Source: Kitasatospora sp. NA04385
GTDB taxonomy: Bacteria > Actinomycetota > Actinomycetes > Streptomycetales > Streptomycetaceae
Assembly: GCF_013364235.1 (NCBI RefSeq)
Contig: NZ_CP054919.1
Location: forward strand, 2,469,345 to 2,533,344
Reading direction: 5' to 3'
Length of the DNA: 64,000 bases
Shown here: positions 59,934-64,000 of the stretch, in pieces
How positions within the stretch are numbered: position 1 is the stretch's first letter
Layout: each line of letters opens with the position of its first letter
The notes under the pieces: model-generated
The model's input: only the letters and a program-made list of their open reading frames with translations
Database searches by the model: none
Told to the model about the DNA's origin: nothing
Made by a program: the position numbers and the translations under genes

Positions 59934-60045
59934 TTCGTGCTCCCCGGCCCGGCCCCGCCTCCGGCCTCCCGTCGCTTTTCCACGCTCCTGACGGCAGGTC
60001 AGTGCCGCCCGCTCCGGGCGCCGTTGGCCGCGCTACGGTGGCCGG

Positions 60046-60957
60046 GTGCCCGATCAGAACGCCGCCGCCACCGCGTCCGCCGCCGCTGCCGCCGAGGTCT
60101 TCCAGGCCGAGCGCCGCTACCTGGGCGCGGTCGCCTACCGCCTGCTGGGCTCGATCGCCGACGCCGAGGACGTGCTGCAGGACGCCTGGCTGCGCTGGCA
60201 GTCCGCCGACCGCTCGGACGTGGCCGACCCGCGCGCGTACCTGACCACGGTGGTCACCCGGCTCTGCTACGACCAGCTGGGCTCGGCCCGGGCCCGGCGG
60301 GAGGCGTACGTCGGCGAGTGGCTGCCGGAGCCGGTGCTGACCACCGGCGGCCCCGCCGAGCCCGCCGAACTGGCCGAACTGGGCGAGCAGGTGTCGGTGG
60401 CGATGCTGGCGGTGATGGAGCAGCTGACCCCGGCCGAGCGGGCGGCGTTCGTGCTGCACGACGTCTTCGCGGTCGGCTTCGACGAGATCGCCCCGGCCCT
60501 GGAGCGCTCCCCCGAGGCCACCCGGCAGCTCGCCTCACGGGCCCGCCGCCGGATCCGGGACGGCGGCCGGCGCGGCCCGGTCGACCCGGCCGAGCACCAC
60601 CGGGTGGTGACGGCGTTCACCGCCGCGGCCACCGGCGGCGACCTGGCCGCGCTGCTGGCGCTGCTCGACCCCGAGGTGGCCTGGCACGCCGACGGCGGCG
60701 GCATCGTCAACGCGGTGCGCCGGCCGGTGTTCGGCGCGCTGCGCGTCGCCCGGCTGCTGCACAAGCTCTCCGGCCGCTGGATCGACGCCGAACGCCCGCT
60801 GGTGCCGGCCTCGGTCAACGGCGAGCCGGGCGCGGTCTGGTACTCGGCGCCCGGCGAGGTCGGCGGCGTGATGGCGTTCACCGTCGAGGACGGCCTGATC
60901 ACCGCCGCGTACGTGATGGTGAACCCGGAGAAGCTCGGCCACCTCCAAGGGTTGTGA
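60046..60957 (+). CDS. ECF41-type RNA polymerase sigma factor (SigJ-like)
   Basis: 303 aa. Sigma2 domain with LLGSIADAEDVLQDAWLRW, sigma4 with LTPAERAAFVLHDVFAVGFD then EIAPALERSPEATRQLASRA, and a C-terminal SnoaL-like extension with the ECF41 hallmark WHADGGG near residue 218 and NPEKL near the end. In this group the extension modulates sigma activity in place of an anti-sigma factor. The start is GTG 60046, leaderless, 6 nt after TACGGT. Target gene is probably the adjacent oxidoreductase. Confidence 0.93.
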   Translation: MPDQNAAATASAAAAAEVFQAERRYLGAVAYRLLGSIADAEDVLQDAWLRWQSADRSDVADPRAYLTTVVTRLCYDQLGSARARREAYVGEWLPEPVLTTGGPAEPAELAELGEQVSVAMLAVMEQLTPAERAAFVLHDVFAVGFDEIAPALERSPEATRQLASRARRRIRDGGRRGPVDPAEHHRVVTAFTAAATGGDLAALLALLDPEVAWHADGGGIVNAVRRPVFGALRVARLLHKLSGRWIDAERPLVPASVNGEPGAVWYSAPGEVGGVMAFTVEDGLITAAYVMVNPEKLGHLQGL

Positions 60958-60967
60958 CCCGGATCAC

Positions 60968-60994
60968 GGTCACACTCCGGCGGGCCGTCCCGTC
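60968..60994 (+). promoter_or_regulatory. Predicted ECF41 promoter of the oxidoreductase gene
   Basis: GGTCACA (60968-60974), exactly 16 nt, then CGTC (60991-60994). The published ECF41 target promoter consensus is TGTCACA-N16-CGTC; six of seven -35 bases and all of the -10 match. It lies 45 nt upstream of the gene next to the sigma factor, the position expected for ECF41 targets. Confidence 0.75.
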
Positions 60995-61038
60995 CCCCTT
61001 CCAGAACCGCCACCGGCGGGGTCACCGAGGAGGACGAG

Positions 61039-62139
61039 ATGACCGGCAAGCACATCGTGGTGATCGGCGCGGGCTACGCGGGGCTGTCCGCCGCCGCCGG
61101 GATCGGCCGCGGGCCGGACCGGGTCACCCTGATCGCCCCCGAGCAGCGCTTCGGGCACCGCGTCCGGCAGCACGAGATCGCCGCCGGCCGCCGGGTCGCC
61201 CGCCCCGAGATCGCCCGCGTGCTGCGCGGGCGCCGGGTCGTCCACCTGGCCACCCGGGCCGTCGCGCTCGACCTGGCCGCCCGCGAGGTGCGCACCGAGG
61301 ACGGCGGCCGGGTCGGGTACGACACCCTGGTGTACGCGCGCGGCAGCCGCACCGCCTGGGGCGACGTGCCGGGCGCCGCCGAGCACGCCTACTCGGCGGA
61401 GCGCGCCGAGGAACTGCGCGGCCGGCTCACCGCGGACCCGGCGCCCGCGACGCTCGCCGTGGTCGGCGGCGGGGCCACCGGCATCGAGCTGGCCGCCGAA
61501 CTGGCCGAGGCGTACCCCGACCGGCAGGTCCGGCTGGTCGCGGCCGGGCAGGTCGGCGGCTGGCTGTCGGAACGCGGCCGGGCGCACGTCCTGGCCGTGC
61601 TCGGCCGCCTCGGGGTGCGGGTCCACGAGCACCACCGGGTCACCGTCGTCACCGCGGACGGGCTGGTCTGCGAAGGCGCGGACGCGGACGGGCCGGGCCG
61701 CGCGGGCGCGGAGCTGCCCGCCCAGGTGGTGGTGTGGGCCGCCTCGATGGAGCCGCACCCGCTGGCCGCCGCCTCCGGCCTGGCCGTCAACGCGCGCGGC
61801 CGGGCCCTGGTGGACGAGCACCTGCGCTCGCGCTCGCACCCCGAGGTGCACGTGGTCGGGGACGCCGCCGCCGTCGAGGTGCCCGGCATCGGCGAGCTGC
61901 GGATGGCCTGCGCCACCGCGATGCCGCAGGGCCGCTACCTGGCCAAGCTGCTCACCGGCCGCACCGACGAGCCGTTCTCCTACCGCTACGTCACCCAGTG
62001 CCTGAGCCTGGGGCGCGGCGAGGCGCTGGTGCAGCTGATCCACGGCGACGACTCGATGCGGCCCCGGGTGCTGACCGGCGTGGCCGGGCGGCTGGTCAAG
62101 GCGGGCATCGTCAAGGGCCTGCCGCTGTCGCTGCGCTGA
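61039..62139 (+). CDS. FAD-dependent NADH-dehydrogenase-like oxidoreductase, ECF41 partner
   Basis: 366 aa. FAD-binding IVVIGAGYAGLSAAAG at the N-terminus, ATG-type loop region (YDTLVYARGSRTA), NAD-binding LAVVGGGATGIELAAELAEA near 140, and HVVGDAAAVEVPG near 270 for the second FAD contact. Resembles type II NADH dehydrogenases and FAD oxidoreductases of the kind found next to ECF41 sigma factors. No membrane-anchoring helix is obvious. GAGGAGGA precedes the ATG. Confidence 0.9.
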   Translation: MTGKHIVVIGAGYAGLSAAAGIGRGPDRVTLIAPEQRFGHRVRQHEIAAGRRVARPEIARVLRGRRVVHLATRAVALDLAAREVRTEDGGRVGYDTLVYARGSRTAWGDVPGAAEHAYSAERAEELRGRLTADPAPATLAVVGGGATGIELAAELAEAYPDRQVRLVAAGQVGGWLSERGRAHVLAVLGRLGVRVHEHHRVTVVTADGLVCEGADADGPGRAGAELPAQVVVWAASMEPHPLAAASGLAVNARGRALVDEHLRSRSHPEVHVVGDAAAVEVPGIGELRMACATAMPQGRYLAKLLTGRTDEPFSYRYVTQCLSLGRGEALVQLIHGDDSMRPRVLTGVAGRLVKAGIVKGLPLSLR

Positions 62140-62208: not shown

Positions 62209-64000
62209 CTACTTCTTCTCCTTCGGGGCCTCCGCGTCCGTCGACAGCGCGGCGATGAAGGCCTCCTGCGGGACCTCCACCCGGCCGACCATCTTCATCC
62301 GCTTCTTGCCTTCCTTCTGCTTCTCCAGCAGCTTGCGCTTGCGCGAGATGTCACCGCCGTAGCACTTGGCGAGGACGTCCTTGCGGATCGCCCGGACCGT
62401 CTCGCGGGCGATCACCCGGGAGCCGATCGCGGCCTGGATCGGCACCTCGAACTGCTGGCGCGGGATCAGCTTCTGCAGCTTGCCGGCCATCATCACGCCG
62501 TAGTTGTAGGCCTTGTCCTTGTGCACGATCGCGGAGAACGCGTCCACCGCGTCGCCGTGCAGCAGGATGTCGACCTTGACCAGGTTGGCGGACTGCTCGC
62601 CGATGGGCTCGTAGTCGAGCGAGGCGTAGCCGCGGGTCTTGGACTTCAGCTGGTCGAAGAAGTCGAAGACGATCTCGGCGAGCGGCAGGGTGTAGCGCAG
62701 CTCCACCCGGTCCTCGGAGAGGTAGTCCATGCCCTGGAGGGTGCCGCGGCGGGACTGGCAGAGCTCCATGATCGCGCCGACGAACTCGTTCGGGGCGAGG
62801 ATGGTGCCGCGCACCACCGGCTCGAACACCTCGGCGATCTTGCCGGTGGGGAACTCGCTCGGGTTGGTGACGGTGTGCTCGGTGCCGTCCTCCATGATCA
62901 CCCGGTAGATCACGTTCGGGGCGGTGGAGATCAGGTCGAGGTTGAACTCGCGCTCCAGGCGCTCCCGGATGATCTCCAGGTGCAGCAGGCCGAGGAAGCC
63001 GCAGCGGTAGCCGAAGCCGAGCGCGACCGAGGTCTCCGGCTCGTAGACCAGTGCGGCGTCGTTCAGCCGCAGCTTGTCCAGCGCGTCGCGCAGCAGCGGG
63101 TAGTCCGAGCCGTCCAGCGGGTAGAGGCCGGAGAACACCATCGGGCGCGGGTCCTTGTAGCCGCCGAGGGCCTCGGTGGCGCCCTTGTTCTGCGAGGTGA
63201 TGGTGTCGCCGACCTTGGACTGCCGGACGTCCTTCACACCGGTGATGATGTAGCCCACCTCGCCGACGCCGAGGCCGTCGGCGACCTTGGGTTCCGGCGA
63301 GATGACGCCGATCTCCAGCAGCTCGTGGGTCGCGCCGGTGGACATCATGGCGATCCGCTCGCGCTTGGTGAGCTGGCCGTCCACCACTCGCACGTAGGTG
63401 ACCACGCCGCGGTAGGCGTCGTACACCGAGTCGAAGATCATCGCGCGGGCCGGGGCGTTCTTGACGCCGACCGGGGCCGGGATCTTCTCGACCACGTGGT
63501 CGAGCAGGTCCTCGACGCCGAGGCCGGTCTTGGCGGAGACCTTCAGCACGTCGGCCGGGTCGCAGCCGATGATGTGCGCGATCTCGGCGGCGTACTTCTC
63601 CGGCTGGGCGGCCGGCAGGTCGATCTTGTTGAGCACCGGGATGATCGTGAGGTCGTTCTCCAGCGCCAGGTACAGGTTGGCGAGGGTCTGCGCCTCGATG
63701 CCCTGGGCGGCGTCGACCACCAGGATGGTCCCCTCGCAGGCCGCGAGGGAGCGGGACACCTCGTACGTGAAGTCCACGTGGCCGGGGGTGTCGATCATGT
63801 TGAGGATGTGCGTCGTGCCCGCGTTCTCACCGGACCTGGGCGCCCACGGGAGGCGGACGGCCTGGGACTTGATGGTGATGCCGCGCTCGCGCTCGATGTC
63901 CATCCGGTCGAGGTACTGGGCGCGCATCTGCCGGGGGTCCACCACGCCGGTGATCTGCAGCATCCGGTCGGCGAGCGTCGACTTGCCGTGGTCGATGTGG
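62209..64000 (-). CDS. lepA: Elongation factor 4 (LepA), N-terminus off the window
   Basis: Translational GTPase that remodels stalled or mis-translocated ribosomes. About 597 residues are visible and the frame is open at the right edge, where the end of the P-loop ([12 protein letters not shown]) is readable. Further G motifs: [20 protein letters not shown] and [15 protein letters not shown]. The unique LepA C-terminal domain is complete ([20 protein letters not shown], then [20 protein letters not shown]). About 15-20 N-terminal residues are missing. Confidence 0.97.

Follow-up and report, generated by a model that had tools for sequence, protein, structure and literature searches.

In Kitasatospora sp. 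NA04385, a gene for a sigma factor with ECF41 features lies directly in front of a gene for an FAD-dependent oxidoreductase, and this locus raises the question of what controls the promoter of the enzyme gene and whether the sigma factor acts there alone. The stretch of DNA analyzed (the window) comprises 64,000 nucleotides of contig NZ_CP054919.1, and positions below are those of the window unless a genome coordinate is given.

The sigma factor, the flavoenzyme and the ECF41 promoter

The sigma factor gene (60046–60957, plus strand, GTG start) encodes a protein of 303 aa, which in a profile search scored 339.6 bits against NF007214, the model of the SigJ subfamily (cut-off 271). Sigma regions 2 and 4 were recognized above their cut-offs (PF04542, Sigma70_r2, 49.2 bits; PF08281, r4_2, 36.6 bits), and the solved SigJ 5xe7 matched residues 15–297. 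SnoaL_2 scored 22.0 bits, below its cut-off of 27; the C-terminal SnoaL-like extension was accepted despite this because of the nearly full-length match to SigJ, which has a SnoaL-like domain (PMC8999054), and the NF007214 score above the cut-off. The DGGG and NPxKL features to which the initial annotation had pointed were found at residues 216 and 293 (the latter as NPEKL), together with WLPEP at residue 92. WLPEP is the linker named for ECF41 in a description that gives three extension motifs, in the parts consulted, without their letters (PMC3426412); the names DGGG and NPxKL come from the initial annotation. Among the best 80 of 298 relatives of the window sigma factor, the nearest named ones belong to Kitasatospora.

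The presumed target (61039–62139, plus strand) starts 81 nt after the sigma gene, a pairing kept in the orthologues, and its ATG is preceded by GAGGAGG at 61027. The product of 366 aa matched Pyr_redox_2 with 120.5 bits; its nearest solved proteins, YjlD (NADH dehydrogenase-like) and FSP1, aligned over approximately residues 3–333 and are distant (best E-value 5.5e-24). By sequence, the enzyme appears to belong to the two-Rossmann FAD/NAD(P) family of type II NADH dehydrogenase (NDH-2). The next gene (62209–63963, minus strand), presumably lepA-like, is convergent.

A near-consensus ECF41 promoter had been proposed at 60968–60994, and GGTCACA (−35, 60968–60974) and CGTC (−10, 60991–60994), separated by 16 nt, were indeed read there on the plus strand. 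The published consensus is TGTCACA-n16-CGTC with a spacer of 16 ± 1 nt (Wecke et al. 2012, PMC3426412), from which the window promoter departs at one position, the first base (G for T). The bare string is not rare, as the 8.4 Mb, single-contig genome holds KGTCACA-N15-17-CGTC 13 times, versus two with the reversed control; it is the conservation in relatives that lifts the motif above chance. The window was aligned with 20 relatives having both genes in the same order (L031–L049 and L051; L050 and L052 were excluded, as no such oxidoreductase was found beside the sigma gene). NGTCACA-N16-CGTC occupied the same place in 18 of them, which rules out a chance string, and the remaining two carried degenerate forms (GGTCACG...AGTC in L034 and TCTCACA...AGTC in L051). 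A second CGTC (60986–60989), five bases upstream of the N16 copy, was lost in most of the 20 relatives, and therefore the N16 CGTC was taken as the −10 element. The first −35 base is free in the lineage of the window and the G for T is a habit of this lineage: among 32 loci with the sigma gene first or divergent, G was present in 12, C in 10 and T in 10, and among 30 loci with the enzyme gene first T was found in 27.

Altogether, the sigma regions, the extension, WLPEP and the extension motifs, the neighbouring oxidoreductase and a promoter with a single mismatch were found in one unit of 2 kb, as had been claimed for sigma factor, promoter and target; the unit is conserved in Kitasatospora and Streptomyces relatives.

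The absence of the ECF41 motif upstream of the sigma gene itself was confirmed and extended, as none was present within 300 nt in 33 of 34 sigma genes of the window's type, the window included; the exception, L138, has an ECF41-like motif within this distance. TAnnnT was found 6–7 nt before an in-frame GTG or ATG in 31 of the 34 genes, the window again included, and was not found at that place in L051, L137 and L139. In the window it reads TACGGT (60034–60039, plus strand), a putative −10 element 6 nt before the GTG at 60046. Such a layout is expected for a leaderless transcript, presumably from a housekeeping-type promoter. The initial annotation had further suggested that autoregulation would depend on readthrough. 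This suggestion did not stand: the ECF41 promoter comes after the sigma gene and reads in the same direction, and the gene after the enzyme is convergent, and therefore no readthrough from this promoter can enter the sigma gene. In the sigma-first layout the level of the sigma factor is probably set independently; autoregulation could occur in enzyme-first loci, which have the sigma gene behind that of the enzyme.

A palindrome upstream of ECF41 promoters

Directly in front of the −35 element lies a candidate CRP-like palindromic operator, GTGACCCGGATCAC (60954–60967, plus strand), of the form GTGA-N6-TCAC, which is absent from the initial annotation. Its conservation beside the −35 element implies a second regulator.

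For a survey of this element, loci were chosen by similarity of the sigma factor and not by pattern (the best 80 of 298 relatives, 30 loci from 121 genomes, and L001 and L002), which after dropping 13 duplicates gave 68 distinct loci with both genes found. The −35/−10 pair was located independently of the palindrome in 62 of the 68, and the palindrome was then sought within 60 nt upstream. Exact GTGA-N6-TCAC was present in 48 of these 62 promoters, drawn from the best 80 of 298 relatives and the 30 loci, against a mean of 0.095 loci after dinucleotide shuffling; by layout, these were 29 of the 32 promoters with the sigma gene first or divergent and 19 of the 30 with the enzyme gene first. With up to one mismatch allowed, all 62 promoters carried the palindrome, and any other arm spacing from N0 to N14 occurred in at most one locus. 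The consensus pooled over the 62 loci is TGTGACGCRGRTCACA. The six loci that left the test for want of a strict −35/−10 pair were L002, L034, L051, L073, L082 and L139; next to a looser promoter, five of them have the palindrome with up to one mismatch, while that of L139 overlaps a degenerate −35.

The placement was equally regular. With up to one mismatch allowed, the palindrome adjoined the −35 element (gap 0) in 31 of the 32 loci whose sigma gene comes first or is divergent, the exception being L059 (sigma gene on the opposite strand, gap 10), and it lay 9–11 bp upstream of the −35 in all 30 enzyme-first loci, whose enzymes are only about 36–42% identical to the window enzyme. Both oxidoreductase/ECF41 pairs found in the window genome have the palindrome, and the two represent both layouts. 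In the second ECF41/NDH-2-like pair (G000:C1:343267-345448; L002, L174) the enzyme gene comes first, and GTGACGCGGGTCAC precedes TGTCACG by 10 bp.

The composite of palindrome and promoter at gap 0 occurred in 19 of 61 relatives, at one place each, with 0 control matches. When 394 genomes of the class were searched for the exact palindrome with GTCACR-N16-YGTC in the next 30 nt (gaps up to 29), the composite was found at 94 places in 77 genomes, against one match with the reversed control. We examined 91 of these places, leaving out G615, G449 and the window's own. An ECF41-like sigma gene lay within 3 kb at 55 of the 91; none was found within 3 kb of the fetched stretch at the other 36, several of which look like chance matches in coding sequence; 30 of the stretches had short flanks. 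The gaps of the 55 ECF41-linked copies fell into separate classes, namely 0 bp (two copies), 3–5 bp (20), 9–10 bp (16), 14–15 bp (10) and 20–22 bp (seven), with no copy at 1–2, 6–8, 11–13 or 16–19 bp. The best-fitting periods were 5.4–5.6 bp for the 55 copies and 4.9–5.0 bp when pooled with the 62 loci, with relatedness ignored; a uniform null reached the observed phasing in none of 2000 draws, a statistic that likewise ignores relatedness. The −10 element was GGTGTC in 29 of 30 copies with gaps of 3–5 and 14–15 and CGTC in 8 of 11 with gaps of 0 and 10; as the gap classes go with different −10 elements, promoter subtype and operator phase seem to be linked.

The palindrome is not special to oxidoreductase targets. 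That early impression came from a narrow rule (gap 0–2) and was overturned by a wider one (gaps 0–12, up to one mismatch), under which 9 of 28 strict TGTCACA-N16-CGTC promoters in front of a non-oxidoreductase open reading frame had the palindrome and 19 did not. The nine include epimerase-like and carboxymuconolactone-decarboxylase-like targets, named by eye. Strict promoters with an oxidoreductase reading frame carried it in 9 of 9 cases, and motif matches without such a frame in 0 of 17. A further 26 oxidoreductase loci, two of them from the window genome, were found across the phylum by paralogous enzyme. Under a rule of up to two mismatches, gap 0–14 and an ECF41-type promoter, half of them (13 of 26) had the palindrome. 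Of the 13 that fell outside the rule, L192 carries it at gap 15 (the locus is L260 in the class-wide set), and several others have it ahead of a different −35, TGTCAGGAA.

Several individual loci deserve mention. In L184, L185, L186, L188, L189, L196, L202 and L203, a GTGA...TCAC-type palindrome is followed, by eye, by TGTCAGGAA (TGTCAGCAA in L186) and a downstream GTTC before related oxidoreductases; these loci possibly represent a further ECF subgroup that shares the upstream operator. The only exact TGTCACA-N16-CGTC of the window genome belongs to a carboxymuconolactone-decarboxylase-like/ECF41 pair (G000:C1:6608855-6610291; L003, L175), where GAGACGCACGTCAC, a palindrome with one mismatch, is located 9 bp upstream. 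In one genus (g221; L243, L244, L246, L248, L249, L250), GTGAAGGACATCAC or GTGAACGACATCAC precedes TGTCACA by 20–22 bp, and a conserved GCCACA lies between the two. Between flavin-reductase-like and sensor-like genes (by eye) of the window genome, GTGATTTGAGTCACAGTCACAG (L170 ~2099; G000:C1:4496298) repeats the arrangement of palindrome plus GTCACA seen at the window, without a clear CGTC. Other GTGAYNYRGNTCAC sites of this genome (18 distinct places; six rows with the reversed control) gave no clear regulon in the eight neighbourhoods of the related list that were read.

The candidate binder and its proposed mode of action

The window site fits, by its letters, a CRP palindrome of the TGTGA-N6-TCACA type. 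The window genome encodes a Crp of 224 aa (L177, G000:C1:3601275-3601949), which aligned end to end with the CRP/FNR-family protein 3h3u, taken here to be mycobacterial Crp. The helix GASRETVNKALADF (SRETV) is identical in both; in CRP proteins this helix reads GTGA. The motif described for Streptomyces coelicolor Crp, GTG-N6-GNCAC (Gao et al. 2012, quoted in PMC10033298), was matched on either strand by 52 of the 62 sites and not by 10, a weak test, because it is sufficient that GTGA is followed by C or TCAC preceded by G, which may be true of about half of all GTGA-N6-TCAC strings. The genes from which Crp control might be read gave less. The adenylate cyclase gene cya is a reported Crp target elsewhere; the only site upstream of the presumed (adenylate-cyclase-like) cya, GTGAGGCTCGCCAC, has one mismatch, an exact palindrome lies beyond the 3′ end of the gene, and no palindrome was found before crp in the upstream stretch read. 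Since the motif and the helix speak for Crp and the weak cya and absent crp sites against it, Crp is taken as the best candidate rather than as a demonstrated binder; we consider it the likely one, fitting better than the NADH sensor Rex.

With slightly less assurance, we favor a model in which the enzyme promoter has two inputs, the ECF41 sigma factor and Crp–cAMP. Its parts, their conservation and their spacing were observed directly; the binding is predicted. The sigma factor would be kept at a basal level by its own leaderless housekeeping-type promoter, and its SnoaL-like C-terminal domain would hold it in check and then release it, a gating that has been reported for ECF41 (review PMC8999054). 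The active sigma factor would direct RNA polymerase to the enzyme gene, Crp–cAMP bound at the palindrome would help sigma-4 at a −35 with a degenerate first base, as at class II Crp promoters, and the enzyme would be made only when the ECF41 signal and the Crp–cAMP state agree. Crp sites are centred at −41.5 (class II), or upstream of this by multiples of a full turn. The centre of the window palindrome, 60960.5, would lie at about −40.5 to −42.5, assuming a start 7–9 nt after CGTC. The gap-0 centre would then be near the class II position, and activation agrees with the finding of a degenerate −35 next to an activator site; granted that Crp binds, activation seems a somewhat better guess than repression, and we draw this more cautiously.

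In enzyme-first loci, the operator would work from about one helical turn further upstream, and at other actinomycete ECF41 promoters from other fixed steps. Gaps of 3–5 and 14–15 bp place it on the opposite face of the helix, which plain class I or class II activation does not predict; since such half-turn steps do not fit simple full-turn phasing, repression stays in play. A general class of Crp–cAMP-coupled actinomycete ECF41 promoters, at which a CRP-type dimer would touch the ECF holoenzyme from a few allowed gaps in approximately half-turn steps, is a tentative extension to which we give slightly less than an even chance. If true, ‘single-target’ ECF41 sigma factors would be wired into a global carbon and energy signal instead of acting alone.

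Repression is the reading that otherwise survives best, although we hold it to be unlikely. Here Crp or another GTGA-reading regulator would cover the −35 and block the ECF41 holoenzyme until a signal arrives. The gap-0 layout does overlap the region contacted by sigma-4, occlusion may be more easily squared with half-turn placements, and Rex, with a related operator of the TGTGAA-N4-TTCACA type, represses respiratory genes including ndh2 in Streptomyces avermitilis (PMC5355995). However, occlusion should be weak at the enzyme-first and other loci, whose site lies 9–22 bp upstream of the −35, and the degenerate first −35 base of the gap-0 group fits help better than hindrance.

That the palindrome is a Rex site is quite improbable and was set aside on the evidence of the half-sites. 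A Rex-type gene is encoded in the window genome (256 bits against NF003995, which we take to be the Rex model; cut-off 126), the Rex operator shares the GTGA-N6-TCAC frame, and the presumed target resembles NADH dehydrogenase. The Rex operators of S. avermitilis, however, keep a TTCAC or GTGAA half (consensus TTGTGAANNNNTTCACAA; PMC5355995), and such a half was present in only three of the 62 sites and not in the window site. Just upstream of a nuoA-like gene (by eye; L171 ~2068, G000:C1:4629167) we noted TTGTGAACTGCCTCACAT, which has the GTGAA half and is similar to the Rex operator described for nuoA1 of S. avermitilis (PMC5355995); with that half present there, Rex-type and window-type sites can be told apart in one genome.

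No more credit is given to the palindrome being two inverted sigma-4 half-sites (GTCACA-like) that form a divergent ECF41 promoter or a second sigma site. The reverse complement of the left arm does resemble the −35 (NGTCACA), but a divergent −10 at 15–17 nt from this arm occurred in only three of 62 loci (L039, L048, L101), a number judged, without a shuffle, to be about chance, and the divergent promoter was rejected on this count. Moreover, the base before TCAC is free over the 62 sites (G 30, A 18, C 11, T 3). In the −35, by contrast, the corresponding base is G in 66 of 67 loci when a looser promoter rule is applied. Finally, an ordinary ECF41–target pair, in which the sigma stop codon and the −35 would just happen to form a palindrome, can practically be dismissed: the left arm of GTGACCCGGATCAC does overlap the TGA stop codon in the window species, but the palindrome is kept in L032, L038–L041, L043 and L044 with the stop codon elsewhere, and it also stands upstream of enzyme-first operons.

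Relation to known ECF41, Crp and Rex systems

The two-input model bears on a widespread group that is described as having an unknown inducing signal, a single neighbouring target and no anti-sigma partner (PMC3426412). A CRP-type operator at fixed distances from many ECF41 promoters would be a first concrete hint of physiology (cAMP or energy state) and would make it possible to test how a global activator acts together with an ECF holoenzyme. It may also be a reason why little effect might be seen when an ECF41 sigma factor alone is overexpressed or deleted.

In the literature search, whose coverage was partial and which does not prove absence, we found no report of a link between Crp and ECF41 promoters or of such an operator, and ‘palindrom’, ‘inverted repeat’ and ‘CRP’ do not occur in the main text of PMC3426412. 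With the S. coelicolor Crp regulon (motif quoted in PMC10033298), the window shares the operator frame GTG-N6-GNCAC, and a Crp with a GTGA-reading helix is encoded. With the S. avermitilis Rex operators (PMC5355995) it shares the GTGA-N6-TCAC frame and respiratory targets, but the TTCAC/GTGAA half is lacking in 59 of the 62 sites. The sigma factor is of the same family as Mycobacterium tuberculosis SigJ (PDB 5xe7), by comparison of the sigma sequences.

The closest counterparts are the ECF41/COE pairs (Wecke et al. 2012, PMC3426412), in which the neighbour gene (COE) encodes a carboxymuconolactone decarboxylase, an oxidoreductase or an epimerase and one of the listed layouts (24 of 53) has the sigma gene first with the promoter at the COE gene. 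The window shares with them sigma-2 and sigma-4 with the extension, WLPEP, the oxidoreductase neighbour and the promoter of the TGTCACA-n16-CGTC type. Unlike in the published description of these pairs, GTGA-N6-TCAC adjoins the −35 and the first base of the −35 is free. Hence, the ECF41 pairs and their promoter were already known, whereas the conserved, putatively CRP-type operator beside them appears, within the literature covered, to be new.
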